Virus record (IMG/VR): IMGVR_UViG_3300035670_000581
Location: 1 to 38,936 of that record
Reading direction: 5' to 3' (one strand)
Origin: a virus
DNA length: 38,936 nucleotides
Position numbers and translations under genes: made by a program. A model generated the notes under the pieces. It was not told the DNA's origin, ran no database searches, and saw nothing but the letters and a program-made list of their open reading frames with translations. Numbering within the stretch: position 1 is the first letter of the stretch; every line of letters begins with the position of its first letter. Positions 1 through 29,920 of this stretch are shown here, in pieces.

Positions 1-210
1 CAGCGTGAGGCGCTGCTGAAAGGGATGGAGGCCTACGGGCCAGGGTTGCCGGTGAGCACTGCTGGTCAGGTGATGCAGCAGGTGTTGAGCAACCCGGCCG
101 CGGCCTATGGGTTGCCAGCAGCGGGGGTAGGGCTGGCGGCCTGGGGTGTGGCGGATGTGATGAGAAGCCAGCAGCAGGCCGCGAAGGAGTCGCAGCTGCC
201 GCTGAGTTAG
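1..210 (+). CDS. C-terminal end of a virion-type protein (partial)
   Basis: The frame is open from the first base and stops at TAG 208-210, so this is the last 69 codons of a gene that begins outside the window. The visible part has an Ala/Gly-rich hydrophobic stretch (AAAYGLPAAGVGLAAWGVA) followed by a short polar tail rich in Gln. The same design, a membrane-like segment near the C-terminus plus a short hydrophilic tail, recurs in several proteins further right, so it is probably another member of that virion-type set. The stop overlaps the stop of the convergent leftward gene by a few bases and no terminator separates them. Function unknown. Confidence 0.6.
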   Translation, partial: QREALLKGMEAYGPGLPVSTAGQVMQQVLSNPAAAYGLPAAGVGLAAWGVADVMRSQQQAAKESQLPLS

Positions 211-608
211 TTGGTGATGTGTTCGACAAAGCGCTCCCAGCTACCGATGCGGTAGCGGTCAACTGGGGAGGATGAGCGGGCTTCGGCGTAGTGCATGACA
301 GCCCAGCCGTAGCCCAGTTCTTCCAGTTGGGCTTTGTTGAGGATTGCGCCCTCGGGTGGGCGCTGGTTGGGTTTGAAACAGAGGAAGAAATCCCCTTGCT
401 TGGGTTGAACCGCCAGGCGGTTCATGGTGACGGGCTGCCCGAGGAGGGCTTCCATTACCTCTGCCGTGGACTGGTGTCCGACAGCAGAGGTGTAGTCGTG
501 CAGGCGCACGAGTTCTCGGGCAGCGTCGAGGGTGACGCAGCTGAGTTCCCAGGTTCCTGCAGCGTCTGCAGGGATGACTGTGGTGCTCATCAGGTAGAGG
601 TTGGGCAC
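207..608 (-). CDS. DUF1874-family protein, candidate viral cA4 ring nuclease (AcrIII-1-like)
   Basis: A 133-aa protein with GTG start at 606-608. It follows the DUF1874 (STIV B116/YddF-like) pattern: N-terminal LYLMSTTVIP, then SAVGHQSTAEVM, PVTMNR, GDFFLCF, PPEGAIL and a C-terminal YGWAVMHY. The known viral member AcrIII-1 (SIRV1 gp29) cleaves cyclic tetra-adenylate and so switches off type III CRISPR; its catalytic histidine lies in the SAxGHxxTA segment, which is kept here. Inference: this may degrade cyclic oligoadenylate in the host, though some family members have no proven activity. It is the last gene of the leftward small-gene cluster, with a terminator-like hairpin upstream. No good Shine-Dalgarno is seen. 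Family assignment is strong, activity unproven. Confidence 0.8.
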   Translation of the reverse strand: MPNLYLMSTTVIPADAAGTWELSCVTLDAARELVRLHDYTSAVGHQSTAEVMEALLGQPVTMNRLAVQPKQGDFFLCFKPNQRPPEGAILNKAQLEELGYGWAVMHYAEARSSSPVDRYRIGSWERFVEHITN

Positions 609-630
609 TTGGGTACTTGAGGTGAGAGGA

Positions 631-660
631 CAGAAAGAAGGCGCCCCCGTGAGGGAGCGC
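631..660 (-). terminator. Intergenic GC-rich hairpin, terminator-like, leftward
   Basis: Read leftward, arms GCGCTCCC (660-653) and GGGGGCGC (648-641) pair through a TCAC loop and are followed by CTTCTTTCT. It sits between the genes at 672-1034 and 207-608. It belongs to the same hairpin family as those at 1084, 1539, 1773 and 2780. The weak T-run suggests a partial terminator or processing site. Confidence 0.55.
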
Positions 661-1083: not shown

Positions 1084-1102
1084 GGCCCCCGGGGAGGGAG
1101 CC
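1084..1102 (-). repeat. Repeated GC-rich hairpin (copy 2)
   Basis: Read leftward, GGCTCCC pairs with GGGGGCC across a TCCCC loop and runs into CCTTGTTGGGGTGCCTC. The same core recurs exactly at 1539-1557 and 2780-2798. Copies at 1084 and 1539 also share the downstream text CCTTG-N3-(G/T)GGTGCCTC, so the repeated unit is longer than the hairpin. Likely an intercistronic terminator or RNA-processing/stability element. Confidence 0.6.
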
Positions 1103-1121
1103 TTCTGGGTTGGGGATGAGA

Positions 1122-1508
1122 TCAGGCGGCGAGGCACCTGCGGAGATGGGTGATGATCTGTGTTGTGTAGAGCTGAAAGTCGTTGTTGGTGGTATCGCAG
1201 AGCGGGCTGAAGATTCGATCTGCGATGATGTTGAGCCGAGCCTTGGAGTTGGCCGAGGCCGGCTTGAAAGTGATGATGTAGTTGCGGGATACTGGGACGA
1301 GTTGTTCGTGGCTTGAGTCGTCATCTTGATCAGCGAAGCGTATGCCGAGATCGAAGATGCCGTTGATGCCGGCCTCGCTGAGCCAGTAGTGCCAGCGTGC
1401 GGCGGCTTGTTGAGCTTGATGGAGTTGATGTTCTTCACACCAGCCTTGAATGATGATGTGGTTGCTGGTGTTAGAGAAGAAGAATTTGTCGGTGAGAGTG
1501 ACTTGCAT
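1122..1508 (-). CDS. Hypothetical protein, leftward cluster
   Basis: Start taken at ATG 1506-1508 (MQVTLTDKFFF), giving 128 aa; the frame is open further upstream, but that would run into the hairpin region. The protein is rich in Asn, Gln, His and Ile, unlike the Ala/Gly-rich virion proteins, and its codons are less GC-rich than those of the rightward genes. This suggests a different origin or lower expression. No motif recognised; predicted alpha/beta with alternating hydrophobic strands (NHIIIQG, NYIITFKP). The preceding hairpin (1539-1557) and following hairpin (1084-1102) mark it as its own cistron. Confidence 0.65.
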   Translation of the reverse strand: MQVTLTDKFFFSNTSNHIIIQGWCEEHQLHQAQQAAARWHYWLSEAGINGIFDLGIRFADQDDDSSHEQLVPVSRNYIITFKPASANSKARLNIIADRIFSPLCDTTNNDFQLYTTQIITHLRRCLAA

Positions 1509-1538
1509 TGGGTGAATGCGTGAGAGGCACCAGTGCAA

Positions 1539-1557
1539 GGCCCCCGGGGAGGGAGCC
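1539..1557 (-). repeat. Repeated GC-rich hairpin (copy 3)
   Basis: Identical 19-bp core to the hairpins at 1084 and 2780. It lies 30 bp upstream of the start at 1508 and 11 bp downstream of the stop at 1569, so it separates the two leftward genes. Confidence 0.6.
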
Positions 1558-1568
1558 TGCAGGGTGTT

Positions 1569-1757
1569 TCATTGATTGATGAGGGAGGTGAGGAGGTGGT
1601 GAGCTTCCTCGATGGTGAGGAGGTGTGTGGGGCTACCGTCCCGTTTGGAGACGGAGACGTAGTGGCCGAAGAGCGGCCAGTAGAACCGAACGCTGTGGAT
1701 GTTGAAGCGTTCAGATGATGTGAGTGAGTTGATGCGATCCATGGCTGATTGATACAT
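1569..1757 (-). CDS. Small hypothetical protein (62 aa)
   Basis: ATG at 1755-1757, 62 aa. The sequence runs from an N-terminal helix (SAMDRINSLTSSER) through a short beta-like stretch (HSVRFYWPLFGHYVSV) to a C-terminal helix (IEEAHHLLTSLIN). Balanced composition and the same hairpin spacing as its neighbours support a real gene. It is the first gene after the long gene-free region, so it probably opens the second leftward transcript. No family recognised. Confidence 0.55.
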   Translation of the reverse strand: MYQSAMDRINSLTSSERFNIHSVRFYWPLFGHYVSVSKRDGSPTHLLTIEEAHHLLTSLINQ

Positions 1758-1772
1758 GGTTCACCAGCCAAT

Positions 1773-1803
1773 GGCCCCCGGGGAGAGGGGGTAGGAGGAG
1801 CCA
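1773..1803 (-). repeat. Diverged copy of the GC-rich hairpin
   Basis: Read leftward, GGCTCC and a pyrimidine-rich stretch precede CCCCGGGGGCC, a lengthened variant of the 19-bp element at 1084, 1539 and 2780. It lies just upstream of the start at 1757. Confidence 0.45.
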
Positions 1804-2395
1804 GCCTGTTATGTGGGGGCTGGAATACACAGGAGATTGGTGAGGGGGTTGCGAATGAAGCGGATGCGGGGCTAGTTTGTAGGGAATTAGCCCACGCAGA
1901 TAAAAGTTGTGGTGGGGGGGTGTTATTGAGAACGGGCAAAGGTGTTGCCCTGTGAGTTGATTATTGATGACGAAGCAGAGCGTGAGTACGCACATACGAA
2001 AGAAATCGAAGCACTCGTGCGCCCGTGATGTGGTGTGAAAAGACTGCAGGAGAACGGAAGCAGAGCGTTCTGTAGTGCTGTGCAGCCTGTTGGGTTACAC
2101 CAAAGAAGCCTTTAGTGCTGTCGGGCGAGAGTGCATGAGATGCGTGAGTGCGAGTGTGCGTGGGTGGGTTGGTGGTTGGTGCGTTGGTGAGTTGGTGTTC
2201 CGTGCGTTGGTGCTGCGGAACGGTGGTGCGTTGGTGCTGCGGAACGGTGGTGCGGTTGAACGGTGGAACGGTGGTGCGGTTGAACGGTGGTGGTGCGTGC
2301 TGCGGAATTGGGTGCCGCAGCGCGTTTCCGTAGTGGCCCACCACGGAAAGGCACTTGAGTTCCTGCAAGTAGCGGCGGAGCCGCTACGCAGGTAC
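1804..2395. other. Gene-free region between two leftward transcripts
   Basis: No reading frame here has a convincing protein composition. Visible contents are a short hairpin (GGGCAA...TTGCCC, about 1932-1948), a GT-rich repeat tract (2155-2310), and an A-rich end that forms the T-run of the leftward terminator at 2396-2423. The leftward genes at 1757 and below must be transcribed from inside this stretch or by readthrough; no clear promoter is seen. Confidence 0.5.
2155..2310. repeat. GT-rich minisatellite-like tract
   Basis: Repeats of about 24 bp are built from the words GTTGGTGCTGCGGAACGG and GTGGTGC, followed by the variants GGTTGAACGG and GTGGAACGG. Two adjacent copies near 2208-2255 are nearly identical. 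On the leftward strand the tract would read as Pro/Thr/Arg-rich nonsense, so coding is unlikely. It could be replication slippage, a recombination patch or a structured RNA. Confidence 0.6.
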
Positions 2396-2423
2396 AAAAG
2401 AAAAAACGCCCCCGAAGGGGCGT
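2396..2423 (-). terminator. Strong intrinsic terminator, leftward
   Basis: Read leftward, ACGCCCC-TTCG-GGGGCGT forms a perfect 7-bp stem with a UUCG tetraloop, followed by TTTTTTCTTTT. It lies 24 bp after the stop of the gene at 2447-2749 and ends that transcript. Confidence 0.9.
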
Positions 2424-2446
2424 GATGGACTGAGGCTGTGGGTGGA

Positions 2447-2749
2447 TCAGCGGTTGAGTTCTTCCTGGTAGACCGTCTCGATGACGGTCTTCATAACTGT
2501 CTCCCCTGCCTGTACGACGGGGACTTGTTTGACCCAGGCCTTGTAGACCCAGTGGGTTCCCACGGTAGGCTCGGGCAGGTGATCGAGGATCTCCTGCTGG
2601 TTGGAGTAGCGTCCGTCGGACGGTTTGAGAACTCCGCTGAAGAAGTCTTCGTTGCGGGTTTCCCAAAGGGAACCCAGCGAAATGCGCCGGCCCTTGAATA
2701 CCTCGGCGGTGGTCTTGGTGGCGGTGGTCTTGGCAGCTGCGCGTGGCAT
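2447..2749 (-). CDS. Hypothetical protein (100 aa), leftward cluster
   Basis: ATG at 2747-2749, 100 aa. A basic, Ala/Thr/Lys-rich N-terminus (about residues 1-20) precedes a compact, mixed region with conserved-looking aromatic positions (GSLWETRNEDFF, GTHWVYKAWVKQ) and a C-terminal helix (VMKTVIETVYQEELNR). The basic N-terminus could bind nucleic acid, but this is a guess. It is followed by a strong terminator and preceded by a 25-bp leader block shared with the next gene upstream, so both are probably controlled alike. No family recognised. Confidence 0.65.
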   Translation of the reverse strand: MPRAAAKTTATKTTAEVFKGRRISLGSLWETRNEDFFSGVLKPSDGRYSNQQEILDHLPEPTVGTHWVYKAWVKQVPVVQAGETVMKTVIETVYQEELNR

Positions 2750-2756
2750 GATTGCC

Positions 2757-2798
2757 TGTTGCGTTGGACATAAAGCAAAGGCCCCCGGGGAGGGAGCC
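2757..2798 (-). promoter_or_regulatory. Shared leader block plus hairpin upstream of the 2749 gene
   Basis: The plus-strand text TGTTGCGTTG-gaca-TAAAGCAAAGG (2757-2781) recurs before the next leftward gene as TGTTGCGTTG-tgcg-TAAAGCAAAGG (2998-3022): 21 of 25 bases are identical and both are attached to the GGCCCCCGGGG hairpin. In leftward sense it lies between the hairpin and the start codon, so it is a transcribed leader or promoter element. Confidence 0.6.
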
Positions 2799-2808
2799 TT
2801 CGTTGGTG

Positions 2809-2991
2809 TCAGCGCTTGATGCGGAGGTGTGGGTATTGGCGGCAGAGTTTGGCTGCCGCCTTGGGGCTGATGTCCTCAGCGGCGTAGCCGGGATGGCCGT
2901 GGTACTGGCTGAAGATCAGCTCCGCTGTGCCGATAGCGCGGGGGCGGAAGTCTTCTGTGCTGTAGCCAACGGCCAGGTTGTTGAGGCTCAT
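2809..2991 (-). CDS. Small hypothetical protein (60 aa)
   Basis: The start is taken at ATG 2989-2991 because it lies just below the shared leader block; the frame is open further upstream, but that sequence is hairpin and non-coding in character. The 60-aa product has a mixed N-terminal half (LNNLAVGYSTEDFRPRAIG), a stretch with several aromatic and His residues (IFSQYHGHPGYAAEDIS) and a basic C-terminal helix ending in RIKR. No family recognised. It is the first gene of the leftward cluster, facing away from the rightward late genes. Confidence 0.6.
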   Translation of the reverse strand: MSLNNLAVGYSTEDFRPRAIGTAELIFSQYHGHPGYAAEDISPKAAAKLCRQYPHLRIKR

Positions 2992-2997
2992 TGCTCG

Positions 2998-3042
2998 TGT
3001 TGCGTTGTGCGTAAAGCAAAGGCCCCCGGGGAGGGGTTTTTT
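2998..3042 (-). promoter_or_regulatory. Second copy of the shared leader block, with bidirectional hairpin
   Basis: TGTTGCGTTG-N4-TAAAGCAAAGG (2998-3022) is followed by CCCCCGGGGAGGGG and six Ts (3037-3042). Read rightward, the last part resembles an intrinsic terminator; read leftward, it is the leader of the gene at 2809-2991. The position between the leftward and rightward blocks fits an insulator role. Confidence 0.5.
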
Positions 3043-3380: not shown

Positions 3381-3420
3381 TATGTCCTCACTGTGTCACC
3401 GCCCAAACCCTAGTTGCCTC

Positions 3421-3429
3421 TTACCCTTC
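3421..3429 (+). promoter_or_regulatory. Variant late motif (TTACCCTTC)
   Basis: CTTACCCTTCC lies about 21 nt before GTG 3450 and is followed by CGCAACTGCTG, like the CGCAACGCAG that follows other copies. One mismatch in the TACCCTC core. Confidence 0.4.
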
Positions 3430-3449
3430 CCGCAACTGCTGCACCCATC

Positions 3450-4028
3450 GTGTACGCCCCCGGCGCTACCCCAAACAACTACGCCCAGGCGTCACCCCTC
3501 GATCTCCAAAACATCGCCGCAAACCTCTTCATCCCCCCGCCAGCAGGCTCCTTCAACGAGCAGCCCGATCCCTTCAACGCCGAACAGTCGCAAGAAGACC
3601 CCGCACTCATCCCGCAACTCATCGTCCTCGCTGCGTTCTGTAAAGAGCTGGAACTCCAGGCGCACCTCGTCCACCTCAATTACACCGGGCCTGACTTCCT
3701 GCCCCTTCATCAGTTCCTCAAATCCCAGTACCAGCTCCATCAAGAGCAGTTCGACACCCTCGCAGAGTTCGTCCGGACACAGGGCGCATTCCTGCCAACC
3801 ACCAATGCCGCTCTACGCGCTGCCCTTCCGCAGTTCTCCGAGCCGGAATCACCAGATCCCCTCGCCATGGTCGCCATCTACGCCGAAAACCTCGCCCAAC
3901 AAGCCCAGATGGCTCGCAATCTCGATCAGTCCGCCTCCGCTGAACGCGCCATTGATGTCCAGAACTACGCCGCAGAACTCGTCGCAGCTGCCAACAAGGC
4001 CATCTGGTTCCTCGCTGCCTCCCGGTAG
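3450..4028 (+). CDS. Dps-like (ferritin-fold) protein
   Basis: 192 aa from GTG 3450; an upstream in-frame extension is rejected because the late-motif variant at 3421 would lie inside it. Residues about 55-112 and 135-192 follow the Dps four-helix pattern: LVHLNYTGPDFLPLHQFLK, then QFDTLAEFVRTQG, and a C-terminal NYAAELVAAANKAIWFL matching the Dps helix that ends in WFL. Of the ferroxidase ligands in E. coli Dps, counterparts of His51 (H75), His63 (H87), Asp78 (D102) and Glu82 (E106) are present, but Asp67 is replaced by Lys91. The first 45 residues are a Pro/Asn-rich extension. Possible roles are DNA binding, iron/peroxide handling, or a fold reused as a structural protein. Fold assignment good, function open. 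Confidence 0.7.
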   Translation: MYAPGATPNNYAQASPLDLQNIAANLFIPPPAGSFNEQPDPFNAEQSQEDPALIPQLIVLAAFCKELELQAHLVHLNYTGPDFLPLHQFLKSQYQLHQEQFDTLAEFVRTQGAFLPTTNAALRAALPQFSEPESPDPLAMVAIYAENLAQQAQMARNLDQSASAERAIDVQNYAAELVAAANKAIWFLAASR

Positions 4029-18245: not shown

Positions 18246-19175
18246 ATGGCTGGATCACCGTTTGCGGCGGATCGGCTGATTGCCTGGGCACAAACCCCCT
18301 TCGGAGAGGAAGTGCTGGAGGGCACCCTCGGCGGCTTGATGGCAGGTGTGCCCATCGCCATGCAGGGTGATGCCCACCCCGGCGCCGCTGCTTTGACAAC
18401 AGCCACTGCAATCCTGGGCGGCATCGGCATGGGAATGGCGGGCCGGCGTATCGGTGCCTCGCTTGGGGCGCGGTATCGAGATGGCGCACCATTACAGGAT
18501 CAGGCCGGGCTGGCAGCCACCATCGGCCGCATCGGCGGCCAGGAAACGATGGGCAAGGCACTGGAGGAGAACGGCAAGATGCTCCGCTCCCAGGTGGCGG
18601 ACTATCTGGTGAACCGCCAGGCCGCCAAAATGGTGCGCGATGGCGAGGTGCCTCAGGCCGTGATGGATCAGTTGATGGAGCTGCGCCAGGCAAACGGCTT
18701 TGTCGATGCGATCAACAACGCACCGCCGGCAATCCGTCAGCAGCTCGATGCCGCCCTGGCGGCTGACAGTGCCACCCTGCGCCAGGCCATCAACAACCCC
18801 ACCCTGCGCCAGCAGCTGTTGCAGCAGTCGGGGATTGATCTCGATGCCCTAGTGGACCTGGAGGCCGATCTGGTCAGCCGCGCCAATGCGTCGATGCCAG
18901 AAGGTTTGCATCGCCTGGCGGATCGCTTTGGCGACACCACAGCCGTGCAGAAGATGCCGCTGGTGACACCGGAGCTGCTGCGTGCCGTCGCCGACAGCGA
19001 GGCAGCGCCGATTACCGGCGAGCATGTAGGCCGCGCCGTGGGGCGCTTCATCGGCGATGAGGTGGGCATCCTTGGCGGGATTGGCGTCGGCATGCTCGCC
19101 GCCAATCAACTGGGGTTGGAGACGCCCAAGGATCGGAAGATCCGCGAGCTGGAAGCACAGCTAGCGGGGCGGTAA
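18246..19175 (+). CDS. Membrane-like virion-type protein (309 aa)
   Basis: ATG 18246 (MAGSPFAADRL) is preferred to the in-frame GTG 18237, as it has GGTGGG just upstream and the usual spacing from the late motif. A Gly/Ala hydrophobic stretch lies near the N-terminus (TATAILGGIGMGMAGRRIG, about 50-70) and another near the C-terminus (GILGGIGVGMLAANQLGL), followed by a short charged helix. The centre is polar and helical, with repeats of Leu and Gln (NPTLRQQLLQQSGIDLDALV). Its TAA overlaps the ATG of the next gene (TAATG), so it is coupled to the macro-like/SLOG protein. No family recognised. Confidence 0.65.
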   Translation: MAGSPFAADRLIAWAQTPFGEEVLEGTLGGLMAGVPIAMQGDAHPGAAALTTATAILGGIGMGMAGRRIGASLGARYRDGAPLQDQAGLAATIGRIGGQETMGKALEENGKMLRSQVADYLVNRQAAKMVRDGEVPQAVMDQLMELRQANGFVDAINNAPPAIRQQLDAALAADSATLRQAINNPTLRQQLLQQSGIDLDALVDLEADLVSRANASMPEGLHRLADRFGDTTAVQKMPLVTPELLRAVADSEAAPITGEHVGRAVGRFIGDEVGILGGIGVGMLAANQLGLETPKDRKIRELEAQLAGR

Positions 19176-20287
19176 TGGCCAGGATTCGTAACGGCTTCAT
19201 CGAATCGCTTGATCCCGGGGAGGTCTTCGTTTTTGGCAGTAACCTGGCTGGGCGCCATGGCAAGGGCGCGGCCTTGACGGCTCGTCAGCGTTTTGGGGCT
19301 GTCAATGGACAGGGCCAGGGCTTGCAGGGCAATGCGTATGCCTTGCCAACAAAAGACGAGCGGTTGCGGGTCAGGCCGCTTGATGAAATTGGGGCGTCAC
19401 TGGATCAGCTCGCCGCTGATGCTGCACTCTATGGCGATCGGACTTTCTACCTCACTCGGGTTGGGCAGGGCCTGGCCTCCCTGCCAGAGGAGGTAATCCG
19501 TGAGCGGGTTGAAGCTGCGGGGATGCCGGCAAATGTGCGGCCCTGGTGGGAGTGGGAAGGCGCTGCGCCAGTGGCTATGCCTGGCGTCCCCGTGGGGCAG
19601 CCCTTTCGTCTGGTTGTTGCCGGTGGCCGGGACTTCCAGGATCCGGCCTTCCTTGATCAGGCCCTGCAGTGCTCCTTGCAGGAGTACGGCCCAGCCGAAC
19701 TGTTGCAGCAGCTCAATAAGGCCAGCCCCTACGGGCCGCTGCAGATCGTCAGCGGTGGGGCCCGCGGCGCTGATGCCCTCGGGGAGCAATGGGCAAAAGC
19801 AGCTGGCGTGCCCATCCAGCGCTACCACGCCGCCTGGGATGACATCCACGCCCCCGGTGCGGTCGTTCGCACGAACCGCCAGGGCCGGCCCTACAACGCC
19901 AATGCCGGCTTTGCGCGCAATGCGCTGATGGCGCAGAACGCTGATGCCGTGCTGGTGATGCCCGGCGGCCGCGGCACTGATCACATGGTCAAGGTGGCTC
20001 AGGAGCAGGGGCTGCCGGTCTGGGATGCCCGCGGCGGCGACCTCGACGCTATCCAGTTGTTGGCGGCGCAGAAGGCCGCGGCCGCCCCACTTCCGGTGTC
20101 AGCGCCGGTGTCCCAGTCCACGGCAGCACCGGCGGCGGAGCAGCTCAGTTTTTTCGATGATGCCCGCCGTTTCGCCGGCCAGGCCTGGCCGTGGATGGCG
20201 GGCCTCGGCGGCAGCGCAGCGCTGGTGGCCGCGGCGATGCAACTCCAATCCAGCAATCCCGAGCAGCCGCCATACCCTCCGGCGTAG
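19175..20287 (+). CDS. Macro-like + SLOG (YspA/DprA-type) fusion with C-terminal membrane segment
   Basis: 370 aa. Residues about 15-105 resemble a phage macro-like domain: VFVFGSNLAGRHGKGAA, then GQGQGLQGNAYALPTKD and FYLTRVGQGLA. Residues 144-286 are a SLOG-type Rossmann domain: RLVVAGGRDF, IVSGGARGADALGE (192-204), GFARNALM (245-252), MPGGRGTDHMV (262-272). After an Ala/Pro linker, residues about 338-356 are hydrophobic (WPWMAGLGGSAALVAAAMQ) with a short tail. Macro and SLOG domains bind NAD-derived and other nucleotides; Thoeris effectors use both. The gene is coupled to the preceding one and precedes portal, so the product may be virion-borne. Inference: it may sense, process or sequester host nucleotide signals. 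Domain calls are firm for SLOG, moderate for macro. Confidence 0.75.
   Translation: MARIRNGFIESLDPGEVFVFGSNLAGRHGKGAALTARQRFGAVNGQGQGLQGNAYALPTKDERLRVRPLDEIGASLDQLAADAALYGDRTFYLTRVGQGLASLPEEVIRERVEAAGMPANVRPWWEWEGAAPVAMPGVPVGQPFRLVVAGGRDFQDPAFLDQALQCSLQEYGPAELLQQLNKASPYGPLQIVSGGARGADALGEQWAKAAGVPIQRYHAAWDDIHAPGAVVRTNRQGRPYNANAGFARNALMAQNADAVLVMPGGRGTDHMVKVAQEQGLPVWDARGGDLDAIQLLAAQKAAAAPLPVSAPVSQSTAAPAAEQLSFFDDARRFAGQAWPWMAGLGGSAALVAAAMQLQSSNPEQPPYPPA
20271..20279 (+). promoter_or_regulatory. CATACCCTC late motif (copy 7), inside the end of the preceding gene
   Basis: Exact 9-mer overlapping the last coding residues (PPYPPA) of the SLOG gene and 20 nt before the portal GTG. Keeping it inside coding sequence argues for function at DNA or RNA level. 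Confidence 0.75.
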
Positions 20288-20299
20288 CGAGGGTTCCCC

Positions 20300-22600
20300 G
20301 TGAGCTTCGACGCCACACGCTTTCAGTCCATCCTTGACGCGGCTCGCAACCGCACCGTGGGCGATGGCGTCGACACGATGGTCGTGGCCGCCCATCTCTC
20401 CCAGATGCGGCTGTTCATGCTTCGGCAGGGGATCGAGTTCTTCGCCAGGCAGGATTCCTTCAACCAGCGCCGCGAGTTCCTGCGCCGCGTGGTGGACTTC
20501 AACGAGCTGTCCTCCCGCTTTGAGTCGATCATCGACTCGTTCCTGATTGATGGCAAAGGGCTCCTCTACTTCCGCCCCGCCAAGGATCTCTACCGCATCC
20601 ATTACTTCTCCCAGGATCAGTACCGCACCTACTACGACGAGGACGGCTTCCTGGAAGAAGTCCAGATCATCTACTCCTTTAAGGTCAGGCCGCCCCGGGG
20701 CTTCGGCAGCGCTCTGGATGCCAGCCAGCTTGGTAGCGCTGAGGAGCGGTTCTTTGCCGGTGCCAGCAATGGCGAGCTGCGCTGGATTCGGCTGCGCGTC
20801 TTCGCTGATCGCATCGAGCAGGCCATCTCCCCTGAGCGCCCCCAGTTCGGAGAGGAGATGGTCGCCGGGCGGCCCGGTGAAACCCTCGTCAATTCACTCG
20901 GCTTCATCCCTGCCACCGAGGTCTTCAACAACCGCGGACTGCAGGCCGGCAGCGGCCACGGCGAGTTCGACTGGGTGGGCAGCTACATCCTTCAGCACGA
21001 TCGGATGGTGAAGGCGATCAAGGGCAACCTGCGCTTCTTCGGAACGCCCACCCTCGTTTCCAGCCGCCCGCGCCACGATCTGGTGGAGCCCGATAGTGAA
21101 TCGAGCACGGCCCAACGCGCCACCATCTCCTCTTCCAGCGGCTTTGTCGGCCTGAACCGCGCCGCCAGCCGCGTCTCCCAGCCCACAGGTGGCGGCTCCT
21201 CCGAGGGTCTGCGGGTGCCGCGGATCATTGCCAACGTCGAGGCCGCCGATCGCGTCGGGTACATCACTCCTGATCCGGTCAGTGGCGATCTCACGGCCTA
21301 CGCCCAGGCATACCAGGAGATGATCCGCGCTGCCCTCGGCGGCGTCGATGATCTCTCCATCTCCTCCGGTGCCACCGCCTTTGAGGTGCGCACGCTCTAC
21401 GGCCGCGTCGCAACAACGGCCACCCGCAAAAACCGGGATCTGATGGAGTACGGCTTCTGCCGGATCTTCGCGTTGATGATTCACCACGAGGAGACGATCT
21501 TTCGTGAGTCTCTGGCGCAGGCGCTGGGGTTGCTCAAGCCTGAGCCCGTCCTGTCTGAAGCCCTGCCTCCAGAAGAGGTGGAAGCCGCTCAGGCCAAGTA
21601 CGACAAGGCTTTCACCGGTTGGCAACAGCAGGTGGCGCAAGCCATTGAGGAGGTCAAGCAGACTGGCGACATCCCATCGGAAGTCGTCGGACTGATCCCC
21701 GATGGGGATTCACGGGTAGACTGGCGCTGGACGGGTCAGGTCTTTGAAGACTCGCCCCAGGACATCCTCAACAATTCCATCGTCTGCCGGAACCTGCAGG
21801 AGCTTGGCGTCTCATCTATCGAGGCACTTCAGTACCTGTTCCCGCAGAAAACACCAGAAGAGCGCGCTGCCATGCTGAGCGGTTATCCGTTCCGCATGGT
21901 GGAAGCGACACAACGCTCAGCTGGAATTTTCGTCGATTTGATTCGCAGCGCTTTCCAGGTGCCGCATCCCCAAGAGCCGGATCTGCCTCTCGCCGCTGAT
22001 CCACAGCTCGATCTCGTCCCGTACATCTACAGGACGCTTGATCACCTCAGGCGAGAACTTTCCTACTCCGGTCAGTATTCCGATGTCGACTTCGCAAGTA
22101 TCCCAACAACCCTCACCGACGCCGATCGCCTACGCGCCTCCCGCGGTGAGCCAACCCAGCTGGAACGGAGCCGCACCAAGCGCCGCACCAATGCCGCCCA
22201 GCGTCTCGATGCCACCTGGGGTTATGCCTCAGATGGCGCAGCAGGTGGCGGTGCCTACACAGCCCAGCTGGGATTCGGCGGCAATGGCGCCCCAGGCTCA
22301 ACCCTGGCAGGCGGCGTTCAATCAGCTGATCGGCGCCCCGACAGCAGTGCAGCCATCTACGGGATGGGTGGCACCCTCAGCTATGACCCCACAAGGGTTG
22401 ACGGCGGCACAGACGGGCAACTGGGGCGTTCCGCAAATGCCGCAGGTGGTCGCCTCGCCTATGGCAGCCCAGATCTCCTCGCCCCCAGCAATGCCGGCGT
22501 ACTCTCCCAGCCCGGTGGAGATGGCGCAGCTGGCACAGCAGGCCGCGGCCGTTCAGGCGATCGCCCAGCAGCAACAGCAGGCCGCCGCGCCCGCCGTTGA
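20300..22600 (+). CDS. Portal protein
   Basis: GTG 20300, 20 nt after a late motif; up to 766 aa. The portal forms the dodecameric ring for DNA entry and exit. Evidence: location after terminase and before a scaffold candidate and the capsid gene, and a portal-like N-terminal half (FNELSSRFESIIDSFLIDGK, YRIHYFSQDQYRTYYDEDGF, DWVGSYILQHDRMVKAIKGN, YAQAYQEMIRAALGGVDDLS, then ATTATRKNRDLMEY). The size is close to the N4 portal. The last 170 residues are Gly/Ala/Arg-rich, probably disordered, and overlap the next gene in another frame by up to 518 bp. I assign it from layout and general pattern; no single diagnostic motif exists. Confidence 0.8.
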   Translation: MSFDATRFQSILDAARNRTVGDGVDTMVVAAHLSQMRLFMLRQGIEFFARQDSFNQRREFLRRVVDFNELSSRFESIIDSFLIDGKGLLYFRPAKDLYRIHYFSQDQYRTYYDEDGFLEEVQIIYSFKVRPPRGFGSALDASQLGSAEERFFAGASNGELRWIRLRVFADRIEQAISPERPQFGEEMVAGRPGETLVNSLGFIPATEVFNNRGLQAGSGHGEFDWVGSYILQHDRMVKAIKGNLRFFGTPTLVSSRPRHDLVEPDSESSTAQRATISSSSGFVGLNRAASRVSQPTGGGSSEGLRVPRIIANVEAADRVGYITPDPVSGDLTAYAQAYQEMIRAALGGVDDLSISSGATAFEVRTLYGRVATTATRKNRDLMEYGFCRIFALMIHHEETIFRESLAQALGLLKPEPVLSEALPPEEVEAAQAKYDKAFTGWQQQVAQAIEEVKQTGDIPSEVVGLIPDGDSRVDWRWTGQVFEDSPQDILNNSIVCRNLQELGVSSIEALQYLFPQKTPEERAAMLSGYPFRMVEATQRSAGIFVDLIRSAFQVPHPQEPDLPLAADPQLDLVPYIYRTLDHLRRELSYSGQYSDVDFASIPTTLTDADRLRASRGEPTQLERSRTKRRTNAAQRLDATWGYASDGAAGGGAYTAQLGFGGNGAPGSTLAGGVQSADRRPDSSAAIYGMGGTLSYDPTRVDGGTDGQLGRSANAAGGRLAYGSPDLLAPSNAGVLSQPGGDGAAGTAGRGRSGDRPAATAGRRARR

Positions 22601-26460: not shown

Positions 26461-27298
26461 GCAGCGGCGGCAGCATTGGCCGCTGCACGGGAATGCGTCG
26501 GTTGCGCTTGCGCTCTGCCGGCACCGGCGCGGCACCGGCCGGTCCGGTTTCCATTGCCGCTGAGAGGGCCAGCCGGCGGCGGCGAGAGCGACGCGGCATC
26601 GCCTTGGACGGCGGCGGCAGTTCGGGCTGGAACTTGCCCAGCAGACAGGGCGCCTGCGCCATCCAGGTGGGCCGCAGCGCCTGCAGCATTGCCAGCAGAT
26701 CCTCCTGCTCCAGGAAGAGCATCGGTGCGTTGGCGTTGCGGGGGCTGCGGTCCACTTCGCCGTTGGCGCCGGTCAGCCGGGCGATCCAGGCCGCCAGCAG
26801 GTCGGCCTCTTCAAAGGAGATGCGACTGAGGTTCAGCTGCCCCTTGAGCGCGCCAGAGCCACGCAGGACACGGCCACGATCCGCCCACAGCGAAGCGATC
26901 GCCTCCGCACCCAGCAACTCCAGTGCTGGCTGCTCGATGCGGAATGGGCGGAAGCCCGTCTCGGCGTCCGCTCCACTGAGGGGATAGAGCATGTTGTAGG
27001 CCGTCTCAAACCAGCGACTGGTGATCCGCAGCCGCCACTGGCCGCGGTCATCTCCCTCCCCCTCCAGCGGCTCACCGAGGGGATGGAAGCGCGGTGCCTT
27101 GGCGGTTGGGATGAACTGGCAGATGCGCCGCCACTGGTAGTGGGCGTAGTCACCGGCGCGATTGGGCTGGGCAATCTGCAGGACATAGCAACGGCTATAC
27201 AGGCAGAGCGAGCCCTTGCCCAAACAGAAGGACATCACCAGCCGCGTCAAGGCCGCTGATTCGTAGGGATTGAGGATCGTGCGTGGCGTGCCAGCCAT
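26444..27298 (-). CDS. LAGLIDADG-fold protein with both catalytic acids lost
   Basis: 284 aa from ATG 27298 (MAGTPRTILNPYE); ATG 27331 would add 11 residues. It parallels the intact endonuclease encoded in the nearby intron: motif 1 RLVMSFCLGKGSL (19-31) against RLLIAVSIGDGHL; YVLQIAQPN...YAHYQW against LLCIGHSAKQLEYLQY; NMLYPLSG against QLLYPGG; motif 2 SLWADRG (136-142) against FFYMDDG; and AAWIARLTGA against REWVYSLTGA. The metal-binding acids are Lys28 and Arg141 here, so cleavage is unlikely. Homing proteins of this fold can survive as maturases or DNA-binding regulators. A basic, Pro-rich tail (PRRSRRRRLALSAA) could bind nucleic acid. It is the only leftward gene in the rightward late region. 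Confidence 0.65.
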   Translation of the reverse strand: MAGTPRTILNPYESAALTRLVMSFCLGKGSLCLYSRCYVLQIAQPNRAGDYAHYQWRRICQFIPTAKAPRFHPLGEPLEGEGDDRGQWRLRITSRWFETAYNMLYPLSGADAETGFRPFRIEQPALELLGAEAIASLWADRGRVLRGSGALKGQLNLSRISFEEADLLAAWIARLTGANGEVDRSPRNANAPMLFLEQEDLLAMLQALRPTWMAQAPCLLGKFQPELPPPSKAMPRRSRRRRLALSAAMETGPAGAAPVPAERKRNRRIPVQRPMLPPLLNQAS

Positions 27299-27765: not shown

Positions 27766-27882
27766 TTGAGTGATTTCCCCAAGATCCTTGGGGCAGAGCT
27801 TTACAGGCCCCATCCGACCTACGTGTCGGAGATGGCAATCGAGCCAGTTGTTGTGCACGATTTCTCAAGCAGCCTGGCCAAA
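27766..27882 (+). CDS. Major capsid protein, N-terminal exon (between the two introns)
   Basis: 39 codons in one frame from TTG 27766: MSDFPKILGAELYRP, then HPTYVSEMAIEPVVVHDF and SSSLAK, followed by a stop in the second intron. It supplies the N-terminal arm expected before the C-terminal exon that resumes with MPGQTVQLDRY. The start could be TTG 27766 itself or lie in a tiny upstream exon after AGGAGG 27390-27395. The last six bases (GCCAAA, 27877-27882) recur just before the second exon (28856-28861), so the splice junction can slide without changing the protein. Confidence 0.75.
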
Positions 27883-28856
27883 TGCTAGGCTGACGGGGAA
27901 CCCAGTCGGGAAACCGTCTGGTGCCAATCCCGTGAATTGCTGGAACTCCATGGCAGCTCTTACGAGCCACAGGACAATCAGCAGCCAAGCCGTCCAGGAA
28001 TGGGCGGAAGGTTCAACGACTACCTCTGTCGGAGACACTGATGTAGCCAGGCTTCTCATTGCCGTTTCAATCGGCGATGGGCACCTGAAGTCAGTCAGTT
28101 CGGCGACTTCATTGCTGTGCATCGGGCACAGCGCTAAACAGCTTGAATATTTGCAATACAAGGCTGACTTGCTGAACGCCGCTCTCGGATCTTCAAATGA
28201 AGTGAAGGAGAGGTCCGTATTCAACAAGCAAACCGGCAAGACCTACGGGACTTGCCAGTGGTGGACCCCTTCCCTTCCCTGCCTGGAAGGACTAAGGCAG
28301 CTTCTCTACCCTGGTGGTAAGAAGTTAATCTCCCCCGCTCTACTGAAATACGCGGGCATTATGGGACTTGCATTTTTCTATATGGACGATGGGCATCTTC
28401 ATTTGAGGTATCGCCGGTCGAAACATACAGGGGAGATGCAGCTCCGTGAACGGGAGACAACACTTGCCGTCTGCGACACCGCTGATCAATGCGAAGTGAT
28501 CCGCGAATGGGTCTATTCGCTAACCGGCGCGGATATGAAGCTGAAGCCCCACAACACCTCTCCCGGGAAGTTTATTCTTCGGTGCTCAGGGAGGATGTCA
28601 GCCAAGCTGGTTGAGTCGCTTAAATCGTGGATTCCATCTTGCATGGAATACAAGACCGACCTCCGGTTTTCATCTTGCAATCGCGGCAAGGCGAACTGGA
28701 GCGAGCCCCAACGCTAAGCAGTGGGCGATAAGGAGGCACGAGCGCGGGACACCCAAACAGGTAGTGCTGTGGGTGATGATATAGTCTGAACACTTACAAT
28801 GCCATAAGTAAGTGAACTAGGGGATAAAGAGCCTCTAGGGTAACAACCCGGCAATG
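27878..28856 (+). ncRNA. Group I intron 2, carrying a homing endonuclease gene
   Basis: Junctions are approximate; the 3' end is placed at G28856 so that the exons join in frame. P1-like stem AGCCTGGC / GCTAGGCT (27871-27891) spans the 5' site. P4 TGCTG (27938-27942) with CAGCA (27979-27983); P6 CCGTCC / GGGCGG (27990-28007); R element GGAAGGTTCAACGACTA (28006-28022); S element GATATAGTCTGA (28778-28789), giving P7 GACTA/TAGTC; P9 CACTTAC / GTAAGTG (28791-28814); P9.1 CTAGGGG / CCTCTAG (28817-28838). The endonuclease gene fills most of the space between R and S, i.e. the P8 region. The DNA is visibly less GC-rich than the exons, fitting recent transfer. Confidence 0.85.
27950..28717 (+). CDS. 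LAGLIDADG homing endonuclease (intron-encoded)
   Basis: 255 aa from ATG 27950. Two intact motifs: LLIAVSIGDGHL (35-46, catalytic Asp43) and GLAFFYMDDGHL (139-150, catalytic Asp147), as in single-chain two-motif homing endonucleases. Such enzymes cut the intronless allele and drive the intron into it. The first 25 codons coincide with P4-P7 of the intron, so either the gene has grown into the core or translation starts later inside the P8 region; no good Shine-Dalgarno is seen. The target is expected to be the capsid-gene exon junction near the GCCAAA repeat. Confidence 0.9.
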   Translation: MAALTSHRTISSQAVQEWAEGSTTTSVGDTDVARLLIAVSIGDGHLKSVSSATSLLCIGHSAKQLEYLQYKADLLNAALGSSNEVKERSVFNKQTGKTYGTCQWWTPSLPCLEGLRQLLYPGGKKLISPALLKYAGIMGLAFFYMDDGHLHLRYRRSKHTGEMQLRERETTLAVCDTADQCEVIREWVYSLTGADMKLKPHNTSPGKFILRCSGRMSAKLVESLKSWIPSCMEYKTDLRFSSCNRGKANWSEPQR

Positions 28857-28861
28857 CCAAA

Positions 28862-29920
28862 ATGCCGGGCCAGACGGTCCAGCTGGATCGTTACAGCTAT
28901 TGGGGAGCGCCTGGTTCCAAGGAAACCCGTCAGCGGAATCCTGATCAAACCATCGGCACCGCCAGCAGCCGGAACATCACCAAGCAGAAAGTCTTGGTGA
29001 CGCTCCACGAATACACCGGTCCCGCTGATCCGGTTGAACCCGATCAGCCCAGCACTTTCAAGGTCAGCCGGGAGAATTTGCTTACCGCTCAGCGTCTACT
29101 TTTGGACACTGGGAATATCGGAGTCTTCCACCAATCAATCGGTTCGTTGACACTTTTGGACGACTATCGCCGCTGGCGCGATCGTGTCTTTATCAACGAA
29201 CTCTACAAGGCTTACTCTCGCGGTCAGGCCAATGATGAGCAGGGTGGTTACTACTTCCCTGGTGGTCTGAGTGAAGCCGGCCTGGCGACGCCTGGCTACG
29301 ATGTCTCCGGTGCTGGTGATGAGAACCAGGCCAAGTTCTCGGTGAAGAACGATCTACTCAAGGTCGTCACCGATATGCGTGCACGTAACGTCCCCACATT
29401 TGCGGATGGTTACTATAGAGCACTGGTCGATCCTGCCTTCCTCATGCACCTCAGGCAGGACGAAGATTTCCGCGAAGTGGCACGCTATCCTGGCAGCGGG
29501 ATGGTCAATCCGATGCAGCCATTCATGGCGCCAAACGCATCGAATTTCCTGGGCATGGGCCCCGCCTATGGACAAGCCGGCTTTGTCGCCGGTGCTCCTG
29601 TAATGCCGCAGGGATTCCTCTTTGAGGGCGTGCGCTTCTTCGAGTCAACCAACGTCCCCGAATATAACTATTCGGTGTCGATTGACGGTGCATCGGGCTT
29701 CTCCGCCAACACCGCGAAGAGCACCCGTGCTGCAACGGCCATGTTCTTCGGGCCTCAAGCTGTCGGAATTGGGGTTGGCGGGAATAACGCTCAAATCCTG
29801 ATTAACTCGAATGATGACTTCAGTAGGTATGTAATCCTCATCTGGAGCCTCTTCGCTGGGTTCGAAAATCTGAATCTAGATTTCGTTACCATCGCCCACA
29901 GCTTCATCTACTCCGTCTGA
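28862..29920 (+). CDS. Major capsid protein, C-terminal exon (N4-gp56-type, HK97 fold)
   Basis: Continues the capsid frame after intron 2 with MPGQTVQLDRYSYWGAPGS; 352 aa to TGA 29918-29920. With the upstream exon the protein is about 391 aa, close to N4 gp56 (about 400). Family-like segments: QTIGTASSRNITKQKVLVTL, FHQSIGSLTLLDDYRRWRD, KNDLLKVVTDMRARNVPTFA, DGYYRALVDPAFLMHLRQDE, and a C-terminal FENLNLDFVTIAHSFIYSV. It forms the icosahedral shell. A perfect hairpin CCCGGCA / TGCCGGG (28847-28869) spans the exon start and may act in splicing. Assignment is by pattern and position. Confidence 0.85.
   Translation: MPGQTVQLDRYSYWGAPGSKETRQRNPDQTIGTASSRNITKQKVLVTLHEYTGPADPVEPDQPSTFKVSRENLLTAQRLLLDTGNIGVFHQSIGSLTLLDDYRRWRDRVFINELYKAYSRGQANDEQGGYYFPGGLSEAGLATPGYDVSGAGDENQAKFSVKNDLLKVVTDMRARNVPTFADGYYRALVDPAFLMHLRQDEDFREVARYPGSGMVNPMQPFMAPNASNFLGMGPAYGQAGFVAGAPVMPQGFLFEGVRFFESTNVPEYNYSVSIDGASGFSANTAKSTRAATAMFFGPQAVGIGVGGNNAQILINSNDDFSRYVILIWSLFAGFENLNLDFVTIAHSFIYSV

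Follow-up and report, generated by a model that had tools for sequence, protein, structure and literature searches.

The stretch of DNA analyzed here (hereafter, the window) is recorded in IMG/VR as a linear virus sequence of 38,936 bases and is a fragment (38.9 kb; G000 in our labels). Close to its left end, a DUF1874 gene terminates a minus-strand cluster of small genes, the position that the original prediction had given it, and is convergent with a plus-strand gene whose 3′ end opens the window (Table 1). The stop codons of the two genes overlap by two bases, the DUF1874 stop occupying positions 207 to 209. The open reading frame stands far above chance and is a genuine gene. A terminator-like hairpin ends 32 bases ahead of its start codon, and the gene therefore needs a promoter of its own or read-through transcription; no sigma-70–like promoter was found between the hairpin and the start codon.

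Table 1. Features at the DUF1874 locus, in window coordinates.
Feature	Position	Strand	Details
Conserved gene, 3′ end; left flank of the empty site	1-210	+	Stop codon TAG at 208-210; 96% amino acid identity in the sibling
Segment replaced by 25 nt in the sibling G001; holds the whole DUF1874 gene	205-640		436 nt; from alignment with the sibling
DUF1874/AcrIII-1-type ring nuclease gene	207-608	−	133 amino acids, GTG start; S8, T9, S41, G44, H45, R64, R83, E86, G87
Terminator-like hairpin, after the 672-1034 gene and before the DUF1874 gene	641-660	−	8 pairs; hairpin prediction
Small conserved phage gene, function unassigned; right flank of the empty site	672-1034	−	96% amino acid identity in the sibling

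The small-gene cluster also contains repeated elements. The sequence GGCCCCCGGGGAG, the core of a GC hairpin, is present in five exact copies at positions 1084 to 3033, all inside the minus-strand cluster, with no exact copies elsewhere in the window; some of these hairpins are scored as minus-strand terminators. The possibility that such intergenic GC hairpins are an insertion signal for the DUF1874 gene was not adopted, since no exact copy is located at the DUF1874 junctions. Short overlapping tandem repeats of the CGGTGGTGCGTTGGTGCTGCGGAA type lie between small genes at positions 2205 to 2300, and similar repeats of different extent are found in a sibling phage (see below) near L082 6660 to 7000. 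A second exchange site was observed at window positions 1122 to 1538 (minus strand) and L082 7511 to 7837 (plus strand), where matching flanks enclose different small genes without Pfam matches.

The gene encodes a divergent DUF1874 protein

The identification of a DUF1874 homolog in the original prediction was to be checked by an HMM search, and this search bore it out: the protein matches Pfam family PF08960 (DUF1874, STIV B116–like) with an E value of 5.1e-22 and a score of 78.3 bits against a cutoff of 26, residues 4 to 100 being aligned to positions 1 to 99 of the 101-position model. No other Pfam family was matched at E ≤ 1. PHROG 5063 (E = 7e-18) and the solved protein 2J6B (AFV3-109; E = 4e-17) were also matched. 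A profile of 52 aligned relatives, the window protein included, found the solved members 2J6B, 2X4I, 2J85, and 6SCF and the Csx1-Crn2 entries with E values of 3e-41 to 1e-16, and had zero matches beyond DUF1874 members at E ≤ 0.001 in this search of solved proteins. The PADLOC model of Csx16, a separate ring nuclease family with a reported structural similarity to 2J6B (PMC12409355), matched the protein much more weakly than DUF1874 did (E = 3.8e-10); its 38.5 bits are not the best profile match.

The three sequence motifs described earlier, SAxGHxxTA, GDxxLxF, and PPEGxxL, are present as SAVGHQSTA (residues 41 to 49), GDFFLCF (72 to 78), and PPEGAIL (84 to 90). Four residues, G44, H45, R64, and R83, are invariant in all 52 aligned sequences, and S41, T48, E86, and G87 are near-invariant, being found in 48 to 51 of them (S41 and T48 in 50 each, E86 in 48). 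H45 aligns with H47 of SIRV1 gp29 and H495 of Csx1-Crn2. The H47A variant of SIRV1 gp29 has been described as an inactive ring nuclease (PMC7213978), and H495A of Csx1-Crn2 fails to degrade cA4 (PMC7293037). The catalytic His position is thus kept, as had been proposed.

An AlphaFold2 monomer model, computed from an alignment in which 44 viral-contig proteins accompany the window protein, had a mean pLDDT of 88.8 and a pTM of 0.79. Foldseek matched it to 16 PDB chains at E ≤ 0.001, and all 16 are DUF1874 proteins, which extends the family traits claimed for the protein to its predicted fold. These matches include AFV3-109 (2J6B; E = 3e-10, TM score by target of 0.80), STIV B116, SIRV1 ORF114, AcrIII-1 (6SCF; E = 9e-8), and the Marinitoga Csx1-Crn2 entries, among them 8Y7G, the H495A variant with cA4 bound. 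The predicted model of the AcrIII-1 protein of phage THSA-485A is a fold match as well, and the two sequences align. The C-terminal ~27 residues of the window protein lie outside the domain; they are modeled with low-to-middling confidence, with a helix at their end. Nothing in the sequence suggests a filled active-site pocket.

The window protein resembles viral AcrIII-1 enzymes (SIRV1 gp29, 6SCF/2X4I; THSA-485A Tsac_2833; STIV B116; AFV3-109, 2J6B) in being a small stand-alone viral protein with the DUF1874 fold, the catalytic His, two invariant Arg residues, and the Glu-Gly motif. It differs from the characterized or solved members in its low identity to them (20 to 35%), in the presence of Ser instead of Asn8, and in the C-terminal extension. 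Fold and His are likewise shared with the Crn2 domain of Marinitoga Csx1-Crn2 (8Y6Z, 8Y7F, and 8Y7G). However, Crn2 is a cellular protein encoded with type III CRISPR and fused to Csx1 in Marinitoga, whereas the window protein stands alone and is phage-borne: the window also encodes a terminase and virion proteins, which place it in a virus, outside a type III CRISPR locus. AcrIII-1 has been described as the ring nuclease found most often in phages (36 of 28,114 genomes; PMC12409355), and DUF1874 genes of phages, including Synechococcus and Microcystis cyanophages, are already on public record. The protein is thus a new, divergent member of an established ring-nuclease family and is not new in principle.

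The gene is absent from a near-identical sibling

A 90-kb record, G001 (IMGVR_UViG_3300035670_000105), is a close sibling of the window. The genes flanking the DUF1874 gene are highly conserved in it (Table 1); identity in much of the structural region is 88 to 99%, with some genes more divergent. On the left, 200 of 204 bases are identical up to position 204; on the right, identity resumes near position 635 and amounts to 95.8% over 501 columns. The sequence in between is replaced by a short linker in G001, and no DUF1874 gene was found anywhere in that record. The linker is not recognizable as a gene remnant, since 118 of 500 shuffles match equally well. The DUF1874 gene with its short leader is therefore a single-gene presence/absence difference between two convergent genes. 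No DUF1874 gene was found in S-EIV1 and four other relatives, some of them fragments, and a search of viral contigs for further siblings, with either flanking gene as the query, returned only G001. Of the earlier description of an accessory anti-defense gene, the accessory part is supported by the empty site in G001; the anti-defense part is inferred by homology.

The window is a fragment of a probable cyanophage

Compared with Synechococcus phage S-EIV1, the window terminase has 48% identity over 93%, against ~20 to 24% for the other isolates listed. A virion gene at positions 20300 to 22600 (PHROG 20475, E = 2e-162) is also 48% identical to its S-EIV1 counterpart, and further structural-region genes show about 26 to 61% identity. 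These similarities support the assignment of the window to a putative S-EIV1–like cyanophage, in agreement with the probable cyanophage origin proposed before. Its hosts are probably freshwater-type cyanobacteria.

Several other genes of the window have features of their own. A ferritin-like (Dps/ferritin) gene at 3414 to 4028 on the plus strand (PF00210, E = 6e-10), 93% conserved in the sibling, lies just upstream of an open reading frame of 1486 amino acids. The gene at 28862 to 29920 is continuous in the window; its homologs in two relatives (L085 15579 to 17839 and L088 5037 to 7237) are interrupted by ~1.1 to 1.2 kb near codons 102 to 106, which suggests an intron or a homing insert. Just upstream of this gene, a LAGLIDADG homing endonuclease domain (PF03161, E = 8e-16) is encoded on the plus strand at 27770 to 28717. 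The sibling counterpart of the gene at 19175 to 20287 (L086 6341 to 7732) is interrupted by roughly 0.7 kb between codons about 296 and 310. A predicted tRNA-Ser (gga) at 26878 to 26952 on the minus strand is antisense to a conserved plus-strand open reading frame and may be false.

In one survey, CRISPR-Cas was reported to be lacking in almost all marine picocyanobacteria but present in 15.9% of the freshwater genomes, in which subtypes I-G and I-E prevail and III-B occurs (PMC11316352). A further paper on the host side concerns lacustris Tous (PMC9361551). A search of bacterial genomes for DUF1874 yielded 22 loci, of which 0 were in records titled as cyanobacterium; the host-side evidence therefore rests on these papers. 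It is consistent with, though short of proof of, a type III target that is available but patchy in likely hosts, and such a patchy target fits an optional gene.

Relatives of the gene are found in unrelated phages

A scan with a closer set of five sequences yielded 64 DUF1874 loci from viral contigs; the single window protein used as a query returned none, and a 10-sequence alignment was too divergent for this purpose. The best relative, L013, is 55% identical to the window protein. In a maximum-likelihood tree, the window protein, L013, L014, L015, L016, L017, and the protein of S-CBWM1 form a clade of seven (support 100/99), within which the window protein, L014, S-CBWM1, and L013 form a supported clade of four; S-CBWM1 has a long branch, which makes its placement less sure. 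The C-terminal extensions of L015 to L017 differ from that of the window protein. L014 belongs to a T4-like cyanophage contig that is in part 79% identical to S-SRM01, the host of S-CBWM1 is Synechococcus, and L016 shares short matches with phages of Synechococcus and Microcystis. Judged by such similarities, the clade brings together phages of unrelated types, of which at least four are cyanophage-like. No relative of the window terminase was found in five clade contigs, which are fragments; the gene therefore appears to have been passed among phages of unrelated types, several of which are cyanophages.

The cyanophage proteins S-CBWM1 gp35, a member of the window protein's clade, and that of the Microcystis phages MaMV are 31 and 26% identical to it, respectively. 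They come from phages of types different from the window and are annotated only as DNA-binding or hypothetical proteins. The annotated start of S-CBWM1 gp35 (L002, about 2992) seems to be an internal Met; with an ATG farther upstream (MAKYFMACC), the first strand is recovered.

The protein is probably a cA4 ring nuclease

We consider it probable that the protein is a phage cA4 ring nuclease of the AcrIII-1 family that shuts off type III CRISPR signaling. From the family, the fold, the catalytic positions, the cyanophage context, and the presence/absence pattern, we infer cA4 cleavage, dimerization, and a benefit to the phage against a host type III system as follows. Cas10 of a type III system would sense phage RNA and make the second messenger cA4. 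The window protein, as a homodimer, would bind cA4 and cut it to di-adenylate with His45 as the general acid, and Csx1-type effector nucleases would then stay inactive. The gene is optional in its phage lineage, which would be expected of one that is useful only against hosts with a cA4-signaling type III system. For comparison, AcrIII-1 of phage THSA-485A abolishes cA4-dependent immunity in E. coli (PMC7371418).

Two points weigh against this reading: the Ser at position 8, beside a residue that affects cA4 affinity, and the scarcity of CRISPR-Cas, mostly I-G and I-E, in freshwater picocyanobacteria (PMC11316352). The substitution was absent from the original description and is added by the present analysis. 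Asn8 is near-invariant, being found in 47 of the 52 aligned members, and is lacking in the window protein; the other exceptions are L014 and L064 (Ser), S-CBWM1 (Ala), and L071 (Thr). Residue correspondence through the 52-relative profile pairs Ser8 with N451 of Csx1-Crn2 and Thr9 with S452, whose replacement by Tyr strongly reduces both binding and cleavage of cA4 (PMC7293037). Thr9 is small and polar and is the commonest residue at the S452-equivalent position. Judging from these residues, activity is expected to persist despite Ser8.

If the Ser8 pocket altered the kinetics while the fold and the His were kept, the protein could be a cA4 sponge or a slow enzyme that sequesters the signal rather than rapidly destroying it. 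Such behavior is suggested by the replacement of Asn8 in three members of the clade of four (all but L013) and by the control of cA4 affinity in Csx1-Crn2 by the adjoining residue. We nevertheless regard it as unlikely, given that the catalytic His and the invariant Arg, Glu, and Gly residues are all retained and that both Ser8 and Thr9 are small and polar, unlike the disabling S452Y. It is quite unlikely that the cyanophage clade of four has a retuned pocket and acts on a signal other than cA4, either as ring nuclease or as sponge, against a picocyanobacterial defense other than classical type III CRISPR.

The protein itself might also cut or bind another cyclic oligonucleotide (cA3, cA6, or a CBASS-type signal) and counter a different defense. 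The gene has been kept or acquired although type III-B is uncommon in likely hosts (PMC11316352), the pocket differs at position 8, and the Csx16 model is matched. However, the characterized DUF1874 enzymes cited act on cA4 (PMC12409355, PMC7293037), and the Csx16 score is far under that of DUF1874, which makes a different ligand very unlikely. A role as a DNA-binding regulator, extremely improbable in our estimation, would agree with the names of some DUF1874 records (S-CBWM1, “putative DNA binding protein”; several crenarchaeal viruses, “DNA binding protein”), but these labels are annotation only, and the ring-nuclease activity established later accounts for the conserved His, Arg, and Glu.

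With cA4 cleavage as the preferred reading, a countermeasure to type III CRISPR would be a gene gained or lost between near-identical phages of the S-EIV1–like lineage. The window and G001 would then offer a natural with/without comparison for asking whether this gene decides infection of type III-B hosts, and position 8 may be a single candidate site for ligand tuning.
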